Source: a virus. From it: a stretch of 23,012 bases of DNA. The position numbers were made by a program, and so were the translations under genes. The notes beneath the pieces were generated by a model that was not told the DNA's origin, searched no databases, and was given only the letters and a program-made list of their open reading frames with translations. The stretch covers positions 1 through 23,012 of IMG/VR virus record IMGVR_UViG_3300042470_000463; one strand, written 5' to 3'. Positions 1,641 through 11,804 of the stretch are shown here, piece after piece. How positions within the stretch are numbered: position 1 is the first letter of the stretch; each line of letters begins with the position of its first letter.

Positions 1641-2108
1641 GTGGCAAAAGCAGGACGCAGACCAAAGCCGACAGCACTTCGGATTCTCGAAGGCACCGTG
1701 AAAGGGCCGCCGAAGCGGGAGCCATCGGCACCGGTCGGAGTTCCGCCGATGCCTGAGCGGCTGAAGGTTGACGAGATCGCCACTGCCAAGTGGCACGAGC
1801 TTGCCGGCATCCTGTCGCGGATGGGCGTGCTGACTACTGGCGACGGCGAAGCCTTGGCCACGCTGTGCGAGGTGCACTCGGCTGAGCAGTCGTGCCTGCT
1901 GCAGCTGCGGGCGGGCGGTGCCGTGATGCACACCGACCTGGGTGGCGTGAAGCCCAACCCGGCAGGTCCGCTTTACCGCTCACTTGTTGCCATGAAGGCT
2001 AGCCTGCTGAGTGAGTTCGGCCTGACGCCTTCCTCGAGGACGAAGCTTGCCACGCAAGTCGAAGTCAAAAAAGACGAGCTCGAAGAGTTCTTCGCCGCCC
2101 ACGGATAA
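1641..2108 (+). CDS. terS: terminase small subunit (P27 family-like)
   Basis: The gene encodes 155 residues. It starts at a GTG preceded by GAGGTG at 1631-1636. The N-terminus, GRRPKPTALRILEGTVKG, is the typical opening of P27-type small terminases, and the following PPMPERLKVDEIATAKWHEL region fits the same family. The small subunit recognises the packaging site on phage DNA and loads the large subunit. The downstream large-subunit frame begins inside this gene, giving a 62-base overlap and probable translational coupling. An antisense frame over the same DNA is a shadow. Function is by family and position; DNA-binding specificity cannot be read from the sequence. Confidence 0.9.
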   Translation: MAKAGRRPKPTALRILEGTVKGPPKREPSAPVGVPPMPERLKVDEIATAKWHELAGILSRMGVLTTGDGEALATLCEVHSAEQSCLLQLRAGGAVMHTDLGGVKPNPAGPLYRSLVAMKASLLSEFGLTPSSRTKLATQVEVKKDELEEFFAAHG

Positions 2109-3657
2109 GCATCGGCCGGGGCTCGACCAGGCGAAGGCCAAGCGGGTCTATGAGTTCTTTGAGAAGGTGCTCAAGCACTCAAAGGGCCAGACGGCCGGTC
2201 AACCATTCCTGCTGCTCCCGTGGCAGAAGTACGTGCTCGGCGAAATCTTCGGTCGGTGTAAGCCGGACGGTACTCGCCAATACCGTCAGGCGTACATCGA
2301 GATCCCGAAGAAGAACGGGAAGTCAACGCTACTCGCCGGCATCAGCCTGTACGCCTTGCTCGCAGACGGCGAAGCCGGGGCGGAAATCTACGGTGCGGCA
2401 AGCGACCGCGAGCAGGCCGGCATCATCTACCGCGAGGCGGCGTCGATGGTCCGCTCTTCACCGGCACTGTCGAAGGTGCTCGAGGTGCTCGACTCGCGGA
2501 AGACGATCATTCACAAGGCGAGCAACTCGTTCTACCGGGTGCTGTCGGCGGATGCGTTTCGGGCTGAGGGGCTGAACGTGCATTGCCTGCTATTCGATGA
2601 GCTGCATGCCCAAAGGGGCGACAGGCGTTTATGGGATGCGCTCCGTTACGGCGGCGCTGCCAGACGACAGCCGCTCTGCCCCGTGTCGATCACGACGGCC
2701 GGCGAGGCCAACAAGTCGCACTTGTGGTACGAGCAGCACGACTACGCCGAGCGGTGCATCGCCGACCCGGCGTTTGATCCATCGTTCTTCGGCTGCATCT
2801 ACGCGGCCGACCGCGAGGATGACTGGAAGTCTCCCAAAGTTTGGCACCGTGCAAATCCGTCCCTCGGCGAGACGATCAGCGAGGAGTCTTTCGCGGCCGA
2901 CTGCCGCGAGGCCGAGAACTCCGCGACAAAGCTGAACTCGTTCCTGCGGTATCGGCTTAACATCCCGACTACGTCAGACGTGCGGTGGCTGCGGCCAGAC
3001 CAAATCGCCGCGTGCATGGGGCCGCTGTCCGAGCCGCTTGAGGGCCGGGAGGTGTGGTGCGGGCTCGATCTAGCCAGCAACTATGACACCACGTGCTTCG
3101 CGGCTGTGGCCCCCAACGATTCGGGTGGCTACGACGTGCATGTTATGGCGTGGATACCTGAGCACAACGCTGCTGAGCGGGAGCGCAACGACCGGGTGCA
3201 GTACACGGCGTGGCACCGGGACGGGTGGCTGACGTACACCGAGGGCCGCAGCACGGACTACAAGCGAGTAAAGGCCGACATTCTGGATTTTGCCCAGAAG
3301 CACCGCGTCCGCAAGTTGGCCATCGACAGATGGAACGCGACGCAGCTGGCCACCGAGCTCTCGGACGAAGGCTTGCCGGTGACGTTGTACGGGCAGGGTT
3401 TTGCGTCGATGACAGCGCCGACGCGCCGCCTAGAGGCTCTTGTGGTCGATGGAAAGGTGCGGTTTGGCTTGAATCCGTTGGTAGGTTGGCAGTTAGGCAA
3501 TGCGGCCGTCCAGACAGATCCAGCCGGGAATCTGAAGGTCAGCAAGGCCAAGAGCACGGAACGTGTGGACGCGGTGGTAGCCACCATCATGGCCGTAGGC
3601 GTTCACATGGGCGAGAGCATGAAGCCCGCCGATATGCCCGAGATTTCCTTCTGGTGA
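2047..3657 (+). CDS. terL: terminase large subunit
   Basis: The protein is 536 residues if the TTG at 2047 is used; a GAGGA at 2036-2040 with a 6-base spacer supports this. It is the packaging motor: an N-terminal ATPase with a Walker A-type loop, IPKKNGKST (residues 86-94), and a Walker B, CLLFDELH (180-187), then an RNase H-like nuclease with acidic residues at GLDLASNYD (339-347), LAIDRW (424-429) and near VDAVVATI (507-514). Length and motif order match HK97-type large terminases (Terminase_1 family). The Lys/Ser-rich first 20 residues are probably flexible, and the exact start is the only uncertain point. The portal gene starts four bases after its stop. Confidence 0.95.
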   Translation: MPRKSKSKKTSSKSSSPPTDKHRPGLDQAKAKRVYEFFEKVLKHSKGQTAGQPFLLLPWQKYVLGEIFGRCKPDGTRQYRQAYIEIPKKNGKSTLLAGISLYALLADGEAGAEIYGAASDREQAGIIYREAASMVRSSPALSKVLEVLDSRKTIIHKASNSFYRVLSADAFRAEGLNVHCLLFDELHAQRGDRRLWDALRYGGAARRQPLCPVSITTAGEANKSHLWYEQHDYAERCIADPAFDPSFFGCIYAADREDDWKSPKVWHRANPSLGETISEESFAADCREAENSATKLNSFLRYRLNIPTTSDVRWLRPDQIAACMGPLSEPLEGREVWCGLDLASNYDTTCFAAVAPNDSGGYDVHVMAWIPEHNAAERERNDRVQYTAWHRDGWLTYTEGRSTDYKRVKADILDFAQKHRVRKLAIDRWNATQLATELSDEGLPVTLYGQGFASMTAPTRRLEALVVDGKVRFGLNPLVGWQLGNAAVQTDPAGNLKVSKAKSTERVDAVVATIMAVGVHMGESMKPADMPEISFW

Positions 3658-3660
3658 CGC

Positions 3661-4920
3661 ATGGAAGCGACGGCAGCACTGCCCGAAATCAAGTTCCTCG
3701 ATACCCGCATGTCCCGCTGGGATGACCTCGTGGCCATGGCCGGCGAGAGTGGCGTGAGGATCACGCCCGAGACGGCGATGAAGACGGCGGCGTACTTCGC
3801 GTGTGCCCGCGTTGTGGCCGAGACGGTGGCGAGCCTTCCACTCCACCTCTACCGCAGGCTTGATGACCACAACAGCGAGCGGGCCAAGGATCTTCCGCTC
3901 TACAACGTGCTGGCCCGCCGGCCCAACAAGTGGCAGACACGCTACGAATGGGTCGAGCAGATGTGCCTTCATCTTGGCTTCTACGGAAATTCGTACCAGT
4001 GTAAGGTGGCCGGCGACCGTGGCAGCGTCAGCGAACTGCACCCGCTGAATCCGGCCGGCATGAAGGTGGTGCAGGAAAACGACATGTCTCTTTCTTACGT
4101 CTACACGGACCCGAGCACGGGCCGGCAGCAGGCGTACCGAGATGACCAGATCATGCACGTGCGGTGGCTGTCGTTTGACGGCGTGCACGGCGAGGTGCCG
4201 GTCGAGCTTGGCAAGGACGCCATCGGGCTGGCCCGTGCCCTCGAGCAGTACGCCGCGACGTTCTACCGGAATAACGCCCAGCCCGGCATCATCCTGCACA
4301 CGGACCAGGCGTTGCCCCGCGAAGTCCGCGAGCAGCTGCGGGACCAGTGGGAGAGCGCCCATCGTGGCCCGGCCAAGGCTGGGCGAACGGCGATCCTCAG
4401 CAACGGACTCAAGGCCGACAGTGTCTCGGCGACGAATCAAGAGAGTCAGCTGGCCGAGCTCTGGATGCAGTCGCTGTTGGCCATCTGCCGCTGCTGGCGG
4501 ATGCCGCCGCACATGATTCAGGAGTTGGGCCGGGCGACCTGGGGCAACCTGCAGAGCGAGATGGTGAGCTTCGAGAAGTTCACCATTGCCCCGTGGCTGC
4601 GGCGGATCGAGGGTGCCATCGAGCGTGACGTGCTGCCAGAGGACGGCGATCTGTACGCCGAGTTCTTGGTCGAAGGGCTGCTGCGTGGCGACATCACGAC
4701 TCGCTATCAGGCGTACGAAATCGCCATCCGAAACGGGTGGATGAAGCCAGAAGAGGTTCGGCAGAAGGAGAACCTCGGGCCGATGCAGTCGCCAACGAAT
4801 GACTCGCCCGGCGAGGTTGAAGACACGCCAGGCGACATGGGCGAAGACGTGGCCGAGGTGGCTGCCGGCACGAGCAAGGACACGCCGGCAGACGTTGAGG
4901 ACGATGCCAATGGCGGTTGA
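3661..4920 (+). CDS. portal protein, HK97 family
   Basis: The gene encodes 419 residues. The segment from about residue 38, AAYFACARVVAETVASLPLH, is the signature opening of HK97/lambdoid phage portals, followed by the expected LPLYNVLARRPN and YEWVEQM regions. Portal proteins form the dodecameric ring at one head vertex, through which the terminase pumps DNA and to which the tail connector binds. The C-terminal 50 residues are acidic and low in complexity (Glu, Asp, Gly, Ala), as is common in portals. It follows terL by three bases and overlaps the first codons of the protease gene by 11 bases. Confidence 0.95.
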   Translation: MEATAALPEIKFLDTRMSRWDDLVAMAGESGVRITPETAMKTAAYFACARVVAETVASLPLHLYRRLDDHNSERAKDLPLYNVLARRPNKWQTRYEWVEQMCLHLGFYGNSYQCKVAGDRGSVSELHPLNPAGMKVVQENDMSLSYVYTDPSTGRQQAYRDDQIMHVRWLSFDGVHGEVPVELGKDAIGLARALEQYAATFYRNNAQPGIILHTDQALPREVREQLRDQWESAHRGPAKAGRTAILSNGLKADSVSATNQESQLAELWMQSLLAICRCWRMPPHMIQELGRATWGNLQSEMVSFEKFTIAPWLRRIEGAIERDVLPEDGDLYAEFLVEGLLRGDITTRYQAYEIAIRNGWMKPEEVRQKENLGPMQSPTNDSPGEVEDTPGDMGEDVAEVAAGTSKDTPADVEDDANGG

Positions 4921-6310
4921 CCTCAAGCCCACGGCTGGCATGGCCGAGGCTGCTCGCACCGGGCTGCGGCTGCACAACGAAGGCAAGAGTGGCGACGGGC
5001 TCAAGCCTGAGACGGTGCGCCGGGCCAACATCATCGCCGCCCGCGAAGAACTCACTGAAGATCACGTACGCGAGATGAACGCCTGGTTTGCTCGGCACGA
5101 GGCCGACCGCAGGCCAGGCTGGAACAAGCCGGGAGACGAGACGCCGGGCTTCGTGGCGTGGATGCTGTGGGGTGGCGACGCTGGCCGCACGTGGTCGGCA
5201 GACAAAGTCGAACAGATGGACCGCGAATCCGAGAGGAGCGAGAGCATGGACGCCAGCAACATTGAGCGCCGCGATTGGGAGTTCGCCGAGGACGGCGGTG
5301 CCGTGGTTGAAACCCGTGCGGACGGGCGGCCCGTGCTGACCGGCTACGCGGTGCGATACAACACGCTGAGCGTGGATCTCGGCGGCTTCCGCGAGACCAT
5401 CCTGCCGGGTGCCTTCGACAAGGTGCTGAGCCGCCAGCGTGGCAAGCAGGACGTGGTGGCACTGTTCAACCACGATCCGAATCAACTGCTGGGCCGCACG
5501 TCAAGCGGGACGCTCGAGCTCACAAGCGATGACAAGGGGCTGAGGTATTCGGTCGTGCTGCCCAACACGGAACTGGGCCGCACCATCGGCGAGCTCGTGG
5601 CCCGTTCCGATTTGCGTGGATCGTCGTTCGCGTTCACCGTGGAGCCACGCGGCGAGCAGTGGGCACCAGGCGAAGACGGCAAGCCGCGACGCTCGATCCG
5701 CGAGGTGTCTGGCCTCTACGATGTAAGCGTAGTGACCCATCCTGCATATAGCAGCAGCACTACGGCAATCGCTCGCCGAAGCATGAATGAGTGGCTTGCG
5801 TCGCAGGCAACTGAAGAGAGGTGCAGCTGCCAAGAGGCTCAGGCCGATCAGCCTGCCGCTGCGCCAGAAATTGACGCCCAGGCTATTGCTGTGCGTCTGA
5901 AGGCGGCGGTTCTCCGCACGTTCCTGCGTGGCTTTTGCCCAACTGGGCAAGGCGGCGGGATCGACAACAGTTGCGGAAAAGAAGGCGGTGGCGGCGGTGG
6001 AGACGGCGGCGATGGTGGAGGATCAGGCGGAAGCGATGGAGGTTCGGCAAAAGGATCTGGCAGCGCCCCTGGCGGACTGAAGTCACCGTCGAAGAAGCAC
6101 GACACGCCGCTGCCGAAGAGCAAGTCGAAGCTCAACCTCGACACCGCCAAGGAAGCCATGGGCAAGATGGGCTACAAGGTCGGAAAAAGCCAGACGAAGA
6201 AAGTCGGCAAGGGCTATGTGACCATGGTCGAAGTCACCGACAGCAGTGGCCATACCGCCAATCTCACGACCGACGAAGTCAAAGACCTTGTGTACGACAA
6301 CCGCAAGTAG
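4910..6310 (+). CDS. prohead protease with extra N- and C-terminal domains
   Basis: The ATG at 4910 is preferred because GAGG at 4897-4900 is nine bases upstream; an in-frame ATG at 4904 is possible. The product has about 466 residues, roughly twice a normal HK97-type prohead protease. Residues 1-110 form an alpha-helical region (GLKPETV, MNAWFARH, ETPGFVAWMLWGG) that I recall from other phage head proteins. Residues about 114-290 are the S78/U35-type protease, with the likely catalytic His in LFNHD (H188) and Ser in LRGSSFAF (238-239). Near residue 343 comes CPTGQGGGIDNSC, then a long Gly/Ser linker, then a small basic C-terminal domain (about 404-466). The protease should cleave scaffold and the capsid N-terminus during head maturation. 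Roles of the end domains are unknown. Confidence 0.88.
   Translation: MAVDLKPTAGMAEAARTGLRLHNEGKSGDGLKPETVRRANIIAAREELTEDHVREMNAWFARHEADRRPGWNKPGDETPGFVAWMLWGGDAGRTWSADKVEQMDRESERSESMDASNIERRDWEFAEDGGAVVETRADGRPVLTGYAVRYNTLSVDLGGFRETILPGAFDKVLSRQRGKQDVVALFNHDPNQLLGRTSSGTLELTSDDKGLRYSVVLPNTELGRTIGELVARSDLRGSSFAFTVEPRGEQWAPGEDGKPRRSIREVSGLYDVSVVTHPAYSSSTTAIARRSMNEWLASQATEERCSCQEAQADQPAAAPEIDAQAIAVRLKAAVLRTFLRGFCPTGQGGGIDNSCGKEGGGGGGDGGDGGGSGGSDGGSAKGSGSAPGGLKSPSKKHDTPLPKSKSKLNLDTAKEAMGKMGYKVGKSQTKKVGKGYVTMVEVTDSSGHTANLTTDEVKDLVYDNRK
5233..5248 (+). promoter_or_regulatory. possible internal ribosome binding site and start in the protease gene
   Basis: GAGGAG at 5233-5238 is followed after seven bases by an in-frame ATG at 5246. 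Starting here would give a protein of about 354 residues beginning MDASNIERRD, which drops the N-terminal helical domain and starts just where the canonical prohead protease fold begins. It may produce a second, shorter isoform. It could also be a chance purine run in a Glu/Arg/Ser-coding stretch. Confidence 0.4.
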
Positions 6311-6318
6311 GAGCAGGC

Positions 6319-6513
6319 GTGGCAAGACCGGGTGACATCTGCCCCCAGTGCGGCAAGGGTCGCATCCGCACTCGCTCGAGCGTGCAGGCCGGCGAACATT
6401 CGCAGGTACGGTACATCGAGTGCCAGTGCTGCACGTTTCGCTCCAAGCAAGTCGTGCCGGCCGAGTACATCTGCCGCCGGTCCCTTGTAAATACAAACAC
6501 TAGGCGAGGCTGA
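6319..6513 (+). CDS. small zinc-ribbon protein (64 aa)
   Basis: A GTG start at 6319 is placed by GGAG at 6310-6313 with a 5-base spacer. It encodes 64 residues with a zinc-binding pattern: CPQCG (C8, C11) and, 23 residues later, CQCC (C35, C37, C38). The spacing and the basic segment RIRTRSS loosely recall the Ogr/Delta-type phage late-gene activators, but the match is too weak to assign. The gene lies between the protease and the major capsid gene and ends five bases before the hairpin that covers the capsid start. A nucleic-acid-binding or regulatory role is therefore plausible but inferred. The last codons contain the AT-rich palindrome TTGTA-aa-TACAA (6485-6496). Confidence 0.75.
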   Translation: MARPGDICPQCGKGRIRTRSSVQAGEHSQVRYIECQCCTFRSKQVVPAEYICRRSLVNTNTRRG

Positions 6514-6515
6514 GT

Positions 6516-6585
6516 GGCATCCTTGGCGTAGTGTGAACGACAGACACGGACTGTCACCGTTCACAACTACGGAGTGCCAAGGATG
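6516..6585 (+). promoter_or_regulatory. long hairpin sequestering the major capsid start codon
   Basis: The left arm, 6518-6539 (CATCCTTGGC, GTAG, TGTGAACG), is complementary without interruption to three right-arm blocks: CGTTCACA (6558-6565), CTAC (6567-6570) and GCCAAGGATG (6576-6585). Only one base (6566) and five bases (6571-6575, GGAGT) are left unpaired. The final block contains the capsid ATG (6583-6585), and the five-base bulge is its Shine-Dalgarno. The loop can form a further ACAG/CTGT pair of 4 bases (6540-6543 with 6551-6554). No run of T follows, so a simple terminator is unlikely. It looks like a translational switch or RNA/protein-binding element. Confidence 0.75.
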
Positions 6586-7887
6586 GCCAGCCAACTCACC
6601 AAGCTTCAGGACCGGGCCGCTGCTGTGGCCGCCATGCTCGATGACCTCTCCAAGGTCGACGAGCGTTCTGCCGAGCAGGTCGCGGAGATGGAGAAGCTGG
6701 CCGGCGAAGCCGAGCAGCTCGAGAAGGAGCTCGCCCGCGAGCACGCCATCGCCGAGCGGATCACCGCCCTGCGTGGCAAGGTGGCTGCGACTGCGAAGCC
6801 CGTCGAGGTTGCCGCCGTTCCTGCGGCCCCGGCCCCGGCTGCCGAGCGTTCGCTGAGCGGCAAGGCCCGCCACTTCCGTTCGTCCAGCGACGCTGAGGCG
6901 TGCGGCCGGTGGATTCGTGGCTACGTTCTCGGCCGTGCCGAGGATCGTTCGTGGTACGAGAAGAACGTCGAGGCTCGCGCCCTGTCGCCCAACGACAACA
7001 ACAAGGGCGGCGTGTTCATCCCCGACACCTTCGCCTCGACGGTCATCCGGCTGGTGGAGTCCTTCGGTGCGTTCCCGGCGCAGGCCAACAACCTGCAGAT
7101 GACGAGCGACACGCTCTACATCCCGCGTCGCGTTGGCGGAAACACGGCGTACCACACGGGCGCCAATGCCGAAACCCAGGCGACCGACATGGCGACCGAC
7201 AACGTGATGCTTTCCAGCAAGGAAGTTCGCGTCGGCACTCGCGTCCCTAATCAGCTGATTGACGACTCGGCGATTGACCTCGCCGGGCTCGTGGCTGAAG
7301 AGTTCGCTCTGGCCATCGCCCAGCGGATCGACGAAGACGGCTTCATCGGCACCGGGGCCAGCCTTTACGGTGGCATCCGTGGCATCCAGTACAAGTTTGA
7401 GAACGAGACGCTGACGGCTGGCATCAACGACTCTTCGCAGTCGGCGGTTACGGCCCTGACGGTCGATGACTTCCTCGCCACCGTCGCCAAGGCTCCGACC
7501 TACGCGACCCAGAGCCCGACCTGCGGCTGGTACGTCACGCCGCAGATGCACGCTCTGGCGATGCAGTCGCTGGCTCTCGGCGGCAGCGGTGCCCTCGCCA
7601 ACGAGGTTCTCGACGGTGCCCGCCGGCCGACGTTCCTAGGGTGGCCGGTGTTCCTCAACAACGTCATGCGGAAGACGGCCTCGGCCGGTCAGTGCGTGGC
7701 GTTGTTCGGCGACCTCAAGCGGTCGAGCCACTTCGCCCTGCGGCGTGCCGTGGCGGTGCGGGCGAGCACCGACCGCTACATCGAGTTCGATCAGACCTAC
7801 TTCCAGGCCACGGTGTCCTACGACGCGGTGACCTCGGACGTGGGCGACGCTTCGACGGCTGGCCCGGTCGTGGCTCTCATCCTCTGA
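6583..7887 (+). CDS. major capsid protein, HK97 fold
   Basis: The product is 434 residues from the ATG at 6583; GGAG at 6571-6574 lies eight bases upstream. An in-frame GTG at 6574 would add three residues but lacks its own ribosome site. Residues 1 to about 95 are a charged coiled coil ending in an Ala/Pro-rich stretch, the usual delta (scaffold) domain that the prohead protease removes. The rest matches the phage capsid family PF05065: GGVFIPDTFASTVIRLV near 140, the N-arm and E-loop region, and IAQRIDEDGFIGTGA, typical of the P-domain helix region. It builds the icosahedral shell. Its start codon is inside the hairpin at 6516-6585, so its expression may be tightly controlled. Confidence 0.95.
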   Translation: MASQLTKLQDRAAAVAAMLDDLSKVDERSAEQVAEMEKLAGEAEQLEKELAREHAIAERITALRGKVAATAKPVEVAAVPAAPAPAAERSLSGKARHFRSSSDAEACGRWIRGYVLGRAEDRSWYEKNVEARALSPNDNNKGGVFIPDTFASTVIRLVESFGAFPAQANNLQMTSDTLYIPRRVGGNTAYHTGANAETQATDMATDNVMLSSKEVRVGTRVPNQLIDDSAIDLAGLVAEEFALAIAQRIDEDGFIGTGASLYGGIRGIQYKFENETLTAGINDSSQSAVTALTVDDFLATVAKAPTYATQSPTCGWYVTPQMHALAMQSLALGGSGALANEVLDGARRPTFLGWPVFLNNVMRKTASAGQCVALFGDLKRSSHFALRRAVAVRASTDRYIEFDQTYFQATVSYDAVTSDVGDASTAGPVVALIL

Positions 7888-11391: not shown

Positions 11392-11804
11392 TGCCCACCA
11401 CAACGCACATTGACGAGTCTCTGGTGCAGCTGCTGACGGCGGATGCCGACATTGCCATGCAGGTCGGCGGTCGCATCTACGCCGTCCAGGCTCCGCAGGG
11501 AGCGGGGCTGCCGTGCATCGTCTACCAGCGGGACAACACGGGCCGAGGCCCGTACATGCACATGCGTGGGATGACCGGAATTACCCGCGTCTCGTTCACA
11601 ATTTCAGCGATTGGCGCGTCGTTGATCGAGGTGCGAAACCTCGCCCGTGCCATTCGGCTCGCCCTACAATTCAAGGTAACGGACGGCATCCGCCTGGCCG
11701 TCGTCAAAAGCGACGACGACACGCAGGAGCCGCCCGCCAACGGGGAGCAACTCCCCATCTACCGCACGGATTTGTCAGTAGAGATCACCTTCACGGAGGC
11801 TTGA
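11391..11804 (+). CDS. tail completion/terminator protein (DUF3168-like)
   Basis: The gene encodes 137 residues. The order IDESLVQLLTADADIAMQVG, then GGRIYAVQAPQGAGLPCIVY, then the long beta-alpha part with LARAIRLALQF and a final YRTDLSVEITFTEA matches the DUF3168 family, which includes tail terminator proteins such as HK97 gp10/lambda gpU functional analogues. These form the ring that stops tail tube growth and docks the tail on the head. Start overlaps the upstream stop, with AAAGGA just ahead. Position directly before the major tail protein agrees. Confidence 0.87.
   Translation: MPTTTHIDESLVQLLTADADIAMQVGGRIYAVQAPQGAGLPCIVYQRDNTGRGPYMHMRGMTGITRVSFTISAIGASLIEVRNLARAIRLALQFKVTDGIRLAVVKSDDDTQEPPANGEQLPIYRTDLSVEITFTEA

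Follow-up and report, generated by a model that had tools for sequence, protein, structure and literature searches.

The major capsid protein (MCP) gene of an uncultured HK97-type phage is preceded by a hairpin that we regard with confidence as a real, conserved translational operator. On balance, its sequence features suggest that this operator of the capsid mRNA is most likely a target of the host's CsrA protein, of the RsmA family. The hairpin lies within a 23-kb stretch from an IMG/VR viral record (hereafter the window, meaning the whole of the DNA analyzed), which contains genes encoding the terminase large subunit (2047-3657) and portal (3661-4920), a prohead protease frame (4799-6310), and a small zinc-ribbon gene of 64 aa (6319-6513, + strand) directly 5' of the MCP gene (6583-7887, + strand). 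The MCP is of the HK97 Phage_capsid type (Pfam PF05065, E 9e-26; phrog_10, E 7e-36), and no cultured phage with a recognizable MCP relative was present among 50,697 phage records. The hairpin had no Rfam match at the gathering score and no second copy elsewhere in the 23-kb record, and a literature search of incomplete coverage returned no description of such a hairpin on a capsid gene of the HK97 type. Separately, the sequence CACGGAGG occurs at 201-208 and 11792-11799, where it overlaps the likely Shine-Dalgarno (SD) sequences of two other genes with starts near 214 and 11812; the capsid-type hairpin is absent there, and these copies may be ordinary SDs.

Architecture and conservation of the capsid leader

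The left arm of the hairpin (6518-6539, CATCCTTGGCGTAGTGTGAACG) is complementary to positions 6558-6585 except for one single-base bulge and the five-base bulge GGAGT (6571-6575) in the right arm, and sequence and fold thus agree with the initial annotation, which had described a 22-base arm with these two interruptions. It had also placed the arm just past the zinc-ribbon stop codon and the capsid ATG in the last block of the right arm, and both placements are correct: the stop is the TGA at 6511-6513, and CAT (6518-6520) at the start of the arm pairs with the capsid start codon (6583-6585). The computed folds resolve three elements on the + strand. A left lower arm, CATCCTTGGC (6518-6527), pairs with GCCAAGGATG (6576-6585) and sequesters the start codon in the window's lineage; a core stem, evident from both fold and covariation, joins GTAGTGTGAACG (6528-6539) to CGTTCACAACTAC (6558-6570); and an apical hairpin, GACA[CGGAC]TGTC (6543-6555), lies inside the region first taken as loop. 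The minimum free energy of positions 6516-6585 was -33.8 kcal/mol, compared with -18.2 +/- 2.9 for shuffled sequences (z -5.3; 0/200 as stable), and that of positions 6500-6600 was -47.1 versus -29.7 (z -5.05; 0/200), confirming a fold better than that of shuffled sequence over both spans.

The hairpin is a conserved RNA element rather than a peculiarity of one contig. Scans of IMG/VR and genomes yielded 122 capsid loci with leaders of at least 80 nt, comprising 64 distinct leaders from relatives that span about 59-100% MCP identity, and a structured leader was found at the same place in all 64. In the alignment of these leaders, 84.6% of cells in the core, apical, and start-site stems were paired, versus 24-47% when partners were slid by 1-3 columns, and 24 cells showed changes on both sides of a pair, whereas shuffles gave 7.4 (0/500). 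The compensatory changes that the initial annotation had named as a check are thus present in relatives that keep the element, including AU to GC and CG to AU replacements in the apical stem. When parsimony changes per leader column were counted on a tree derived from aligned MCP codons, the left arm of the core stem, also supported by the slid controls, showed mostly 0-9 steps per column, with one variable column of 16. The length and register of the continuous stem differ among relatives, and in one subgroup (L030, L076, L164, and others) the right arm has lost GTTCA by deletion and the stem pairs again in a different register, which argues for selection on structure. In distant HK97 capsid genes from 392 Planctomycetota genomes, the element was absent from the readable leaders, indicating that it belongs to this phage lineage; some of the loci had been taken from the wrong strand and are uninformative. 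Conservation, covariation, and fold together lend good support to the earlier proposal of a translational switch or RNA-binding element, although that proposal had missed the two ANGGA motifs described below.

Start-codon hiding is a property of the family and is achieved by changing left arms. Averaged over the 64 leaders, the AUG was paired with sequence to the left of the core with a probability of 0.59, compared with 0.30 when that sequence was dinucleotide-shuffled. The probability exceeded 0.5 in 39/64 leaders, whereas 18.6 were expected and none of 30 shuffle sets contained more than 26; for 25 representatives sharing less than 85% identity, the averages were 0.55 and 0.26, respectively. 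It is because this pairing exceeds shuffles despite the differing arms that we assign it to the family as a whole. Columns of the lower-left arm accumulated approximately 10-22 parsimony steps, a near-neutral rate. The earlier view that the capsid start codon is held in pairing therefore stands for the family, whereas the specific long arm of the window drifts near-neutrally. The fully complementary 10-bp lower stem with a clean SD bulge characterizes the window's lineage: it is most evident in the window, L006, L035, and L069 (the last with a compensatory U-A to G-C change) and partly visible in L034. Likewise, the capsid SD GGAG (6571-6574, + strand; context ACGGAG) is bulged out as GGAGT in the window, as had been noted, but according to the pairing probabilities its GG is paired with the core stem in most relatives.

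Two ANGGA motifs and candidate control by CsrA

The first ANGGA motif (A6546-A6550) lies in the loop of the apical hairpin and is candidate CsrA site 1. The second (6579-6583) lies within GCC[AAGGAU]GGC (6576-6587, + strand), a hexaloop motif that holds the start codon and constitutes candidate CsrA site 2. As a neutral yardstick, 37 four-fold degenerate MCP sites on the same tree showed a mean of 11.1 changes, and none had fewer than two. The steps at the apical A-N-G-G-A were 1, 10, 0, 2, and 1, and ANGGA was present in 60/64 leaders with only N free, the loop being kept while its stem changes. The start site was GCC[ANGGAU]GGC in 64/64 leaders (N, A or C), so that the start codon sits within GCCANGGAUGGC, invariant in every leader except at N. 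Because the start codon accounts for three positions of this motif and an invariant Ala codon for two more, the argument is carried by the six noncoding positions in the GCCA-N-GG that precedes the ATG; these six showed 0 steps compared with 8 at N. In the SD columns, GG showed 0 steps and A and G 2 steps each. Among the 93 usable leader columns, only three variable positions stood alone between near-invariant neighbors, and two of these were the N of an ANGGA. Recombination between leader and capsid may inflate these step counts, though in all leader columns alike. The capsid ATG was also the only one with CANGG just before it among the 143 ATGs that open frames of at least 60 aa on the + strand of the window. 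The apical GGA was lost in L149, L150, L077-L079, and L145 (loop GACACGANGTC), where the start site and the ACGGAG SD remain; the shift from ACGGA to ACGAN occurred in at least two lineages, with the rest of the leader kept.

A high-affinity site for Csr/Rsm proteins (CsrA/RsmE) is a hexaloop, ANGGAX, whose stem is closed by a C-G pair and whose N is looped out (PMC4005645). A CsrA dimer bridges two sites separated by 10-63 nt, and glgC and hag each have one CsrA site in the ribosome-binding region (PMC7652899). The two ANGGA motifs, at the apical loop and the start codon, thus point to CsrA as the candidate trans-acting factor. Three features of a CsrA-controlled leader are present here, namely an ANGGA in a hairpin loop, a second GGA site overlapping the start codon (64/64), and a spacing within the bridging range, the GGAs at 6548-6550 and 6581-6583 being 33 nt apart. 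In the mechanism we propose, one host CsrA dimer would bridge the loops at the apex and at the start codon, excluding the 30S subunit and keeping capsid synthesis low, and repression would be lifted by the antagonist FliW or by titration of CsrA, for instance as phage mRNA accumulates. Apart from CsrA, the closed lower stem would hold the AUG paired. In the minimum-energy fold of the window, the start-site GGA is fully base-paired, making it a poor CsrA target until the stem is opened; the hexaloop conformer of this site is 8 kcal/mol less stable than the best fold.

The putative agent of this opening is a ribosome that completes translation of the zinc-ribbon gene. This is plausible geometrically, as the footprint of such a ribosome would cover 6518-6527 and the ribosome could peel off the left arm. 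Such coupling might also operate independently of any protein, with the hairpin merely blocking de novo capsid initiation until the terminating ribosome opens it and the ANGGA motifs being conserved for structural or ribosomal needs. In the leaders examined, approximately 59-85 nt separate the zinc-ribbon stop from the capsid ATG 3' of it, the AUG is sequestered by changing left arms beyond the level of shuffles, and the start region refolds as a weak 4-bp hairpin in computed folds when the left arm is made unavailable, all of which agree with coupling. However, coupling leaves unexplained why the unpaired apical A-GGA is invariant while N and the pairing partners vary, and why GCCANGG is invariant even in leaders with an unsequestered AUG; as a sufficient account of the element, we consider it quite improbable. 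Long stems are also of the kind that RNase III can cut, and the hairpin, whose stem is long, adjoins the gene of the most abundant protein. The capsid protein, the protease, or RNase III might accordingly recognize the stem-loop and limit capsid synthesis or stabilize the mRNA. Such autogenous control or processing is very improbable in our assessment, as stem length and register vary whereas the two ANGGA motifs are kept.

The candidate CsrA operator resembles those of Escherichia coli glgC and Bacillus subtilis hag (the FliW-CsrA-Hag system) in having a pair of GGA sites, the first within a hairpin loop and the second in the ribosome-binding region, at a spacing that allows bridging, and hag likewise encodes a hugely abundant assembling protein. 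It differs in that those are host genes, whereas a phage capsid gene would here be served by a host-supplied csrA. In addition, the second site overlaps the start codon rather than the SD and, in the window, is locked in a long stem, and binding by CsrA is here an inference from the leader. Phage-encoded CsrA homologues are known (PMC11879866, PMC12038007). The csrA gene of phage PTXU04 and the plasmid-type RsmQ are similar examples of mobile elements exploiting the Csr system, but those elements carry the regulator, whereas the phage here appears to carry the target site only. No csrA was found in the 21 viral records searched, so the CsrA factor must be the host's, and an autonomous phage CsrA circuit was dropped from consideration.

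The adjacent zinc-ribbon gene

The main rival to control by CsrA is that the adjacent phage zinc-ribbon protein reads the element, switching capsid translation on or off in the manner of phage Mu Com acting on mom. Com recognizes a hairpin-loop motif, CC(N)2-3GAG, proximal to a translation inhibition structure that includes the mom GUG start codon (PMC6483171). The layout here is strikingly parallel, with a small zinc-protein gene preceding a gene that has its start codon in a stem and a loop motif nearby, and the zinc-ribbon gene is found immediately upstream of the capsid gene in 62/64 leaders. The encoded protein, with the pattern CPxC...RTRSS...QVRYLEC..C, is conserved beside the capsid gene.

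A second conserved palindrome, TTGTAAATACAA (6485-6496, + strand), which also covaries, is located within the zinc-ribbon gene or at its 3' end and adds to this parallel. Its position relative to the capsid ATG is -88 to -94 in 63/64 leaders, and there is compensation between its half-sites (TTTGTA/TACAAA, GTTCTA/TAGAAC, GTTGTA/TACAAC, and TACCTA/TAGGTA) while the encoded amino acids change, and it could be either an RNA hairpin or a DNA operator.

Family searches, which used typed translations with the start residue written as M, revealed no Com homologue among the Pfam, PHROG, and PDB-sequence matches listed. Nor was the protein a clear Ogr member: the window's copy scored 14.9 bits against Ogr/Delta, a family of DNA-binding activators of late genes, below the Pfam gathering cut-off of 26.3, and 6/11 zinc-ribbon members showed weak similarity to Ogr_Delta (best E 1e-4), with further weak matches to other zinc ribbons. 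This lack of a match to a Com family counts against a Com-like reading, as does the loop motif, which differs from that of Com. The target is also a different one, a capsid gene instead of a DNA-modification gene. Moreover, the twice-repeated A-N-GGA degeneracy is a signature of CsrA, and host flagellin leaders display the same degeneracy without any phage protein. We therefore regard recognition by the zinc-ribbon protein as unlikely.

The likely host and its flagellin leaders

The only named genome matches of the MCP (65% identity) are on two contigs of one metagenome-assembled genome (MAG), Phycisphaerales bacterium UBA4658, which makes a planctomycete the likely host of these phages. The best match of the phage integrase reached only 37-38% identity, yet it fell in the same MAG. 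Among 61 sampled Phycisphaerae genomes, csrA was present in 54 and fliW in 36, and csrA, fliW, and the flagellin gene were often clustered. The MAG with the two MCP relatives also has csrA, and its CsrA carries the VHR motif. This genome (G021) holds two csrA paralogues, one canonical near fliW and flagellin (L185 and L186 being the pair) and one diverged (53 bits); at least two csrA copies also occur in several other Phycisphaerae genomes. Counting against CsrA, both MAG-binned phage relatives on which the host assignment is based (L149 and L150) have lost the apical GGA.

Phycisphaerae appear to use canonical CsrA hairpins, judging from their flagellin leaders. C[ANGGAG]G hairpins with stems of at least 4 bp were present at the SD in 13/18 sampled INTN-type flagellin leaders versus 7% of background ANGGA sites, and in these hexaloop hairpins N is free and the stems covary, as in CAATC[ACGGAG]GATTG, CAATC[ATGGAG]GATTG, TTAATC[ATGGAG]GATTAA, and ACAAC[AGGGAG]GTTGT. 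The first of these is the flagellin leader of the MAG holding the two MCP relatives. In leaders L245, L246, L250-L257, and L260-L266, the covarying hairpin over the SD is often accompanied by a second upstream ANGGA hairpin. By analogy, the phage capsid leader may be built like the flagellin leaders of its host (L245-L266), sharing the C[ANGGAN]G hexaloop at the initiation region, the free N, and the covarying stem, together with the second upstream ANGGA hairpin seen in several of them (L250, L246, and L263); the flagellin hexaloop holds the SD (AGGAG), whereas that of the phage holds the AUG. These flagellin leaders point to an apparent FliW-CsrA-flagellin translational control in Planctomycetota, on which a literature search for CsrA or FliW in Planctomycetes found no paper. 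A search of similarly incomplete coverage did not find CsrA control of a phage capsid gene.

Discussions of how tailed phages control capsid synthesis usually center on late promoters and stoichiometry. Tentatively, and with slightly more doubt than conviction, we propose that an uncultured, probably planctomycete-infecting lineage of HK97-type phages has wired its capsid gene into the FliW-CsrA flagellin homeostasis circuit of the host. The most abundant protein of the phage may thereby have come under the host control that also governs flagellin and, if this is true, one post-transcriptional signal would both set flagellin synthesis and gate virion production. Such an arrangement would also count as evidence that FliW and CsrA control flagellin translation in Planctomycetota. 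A cis-RNA capsid operator using a global regulator of the host would be a new point at which a phage senses host physiology, such as the motile or sessile state or flagellar assembly.
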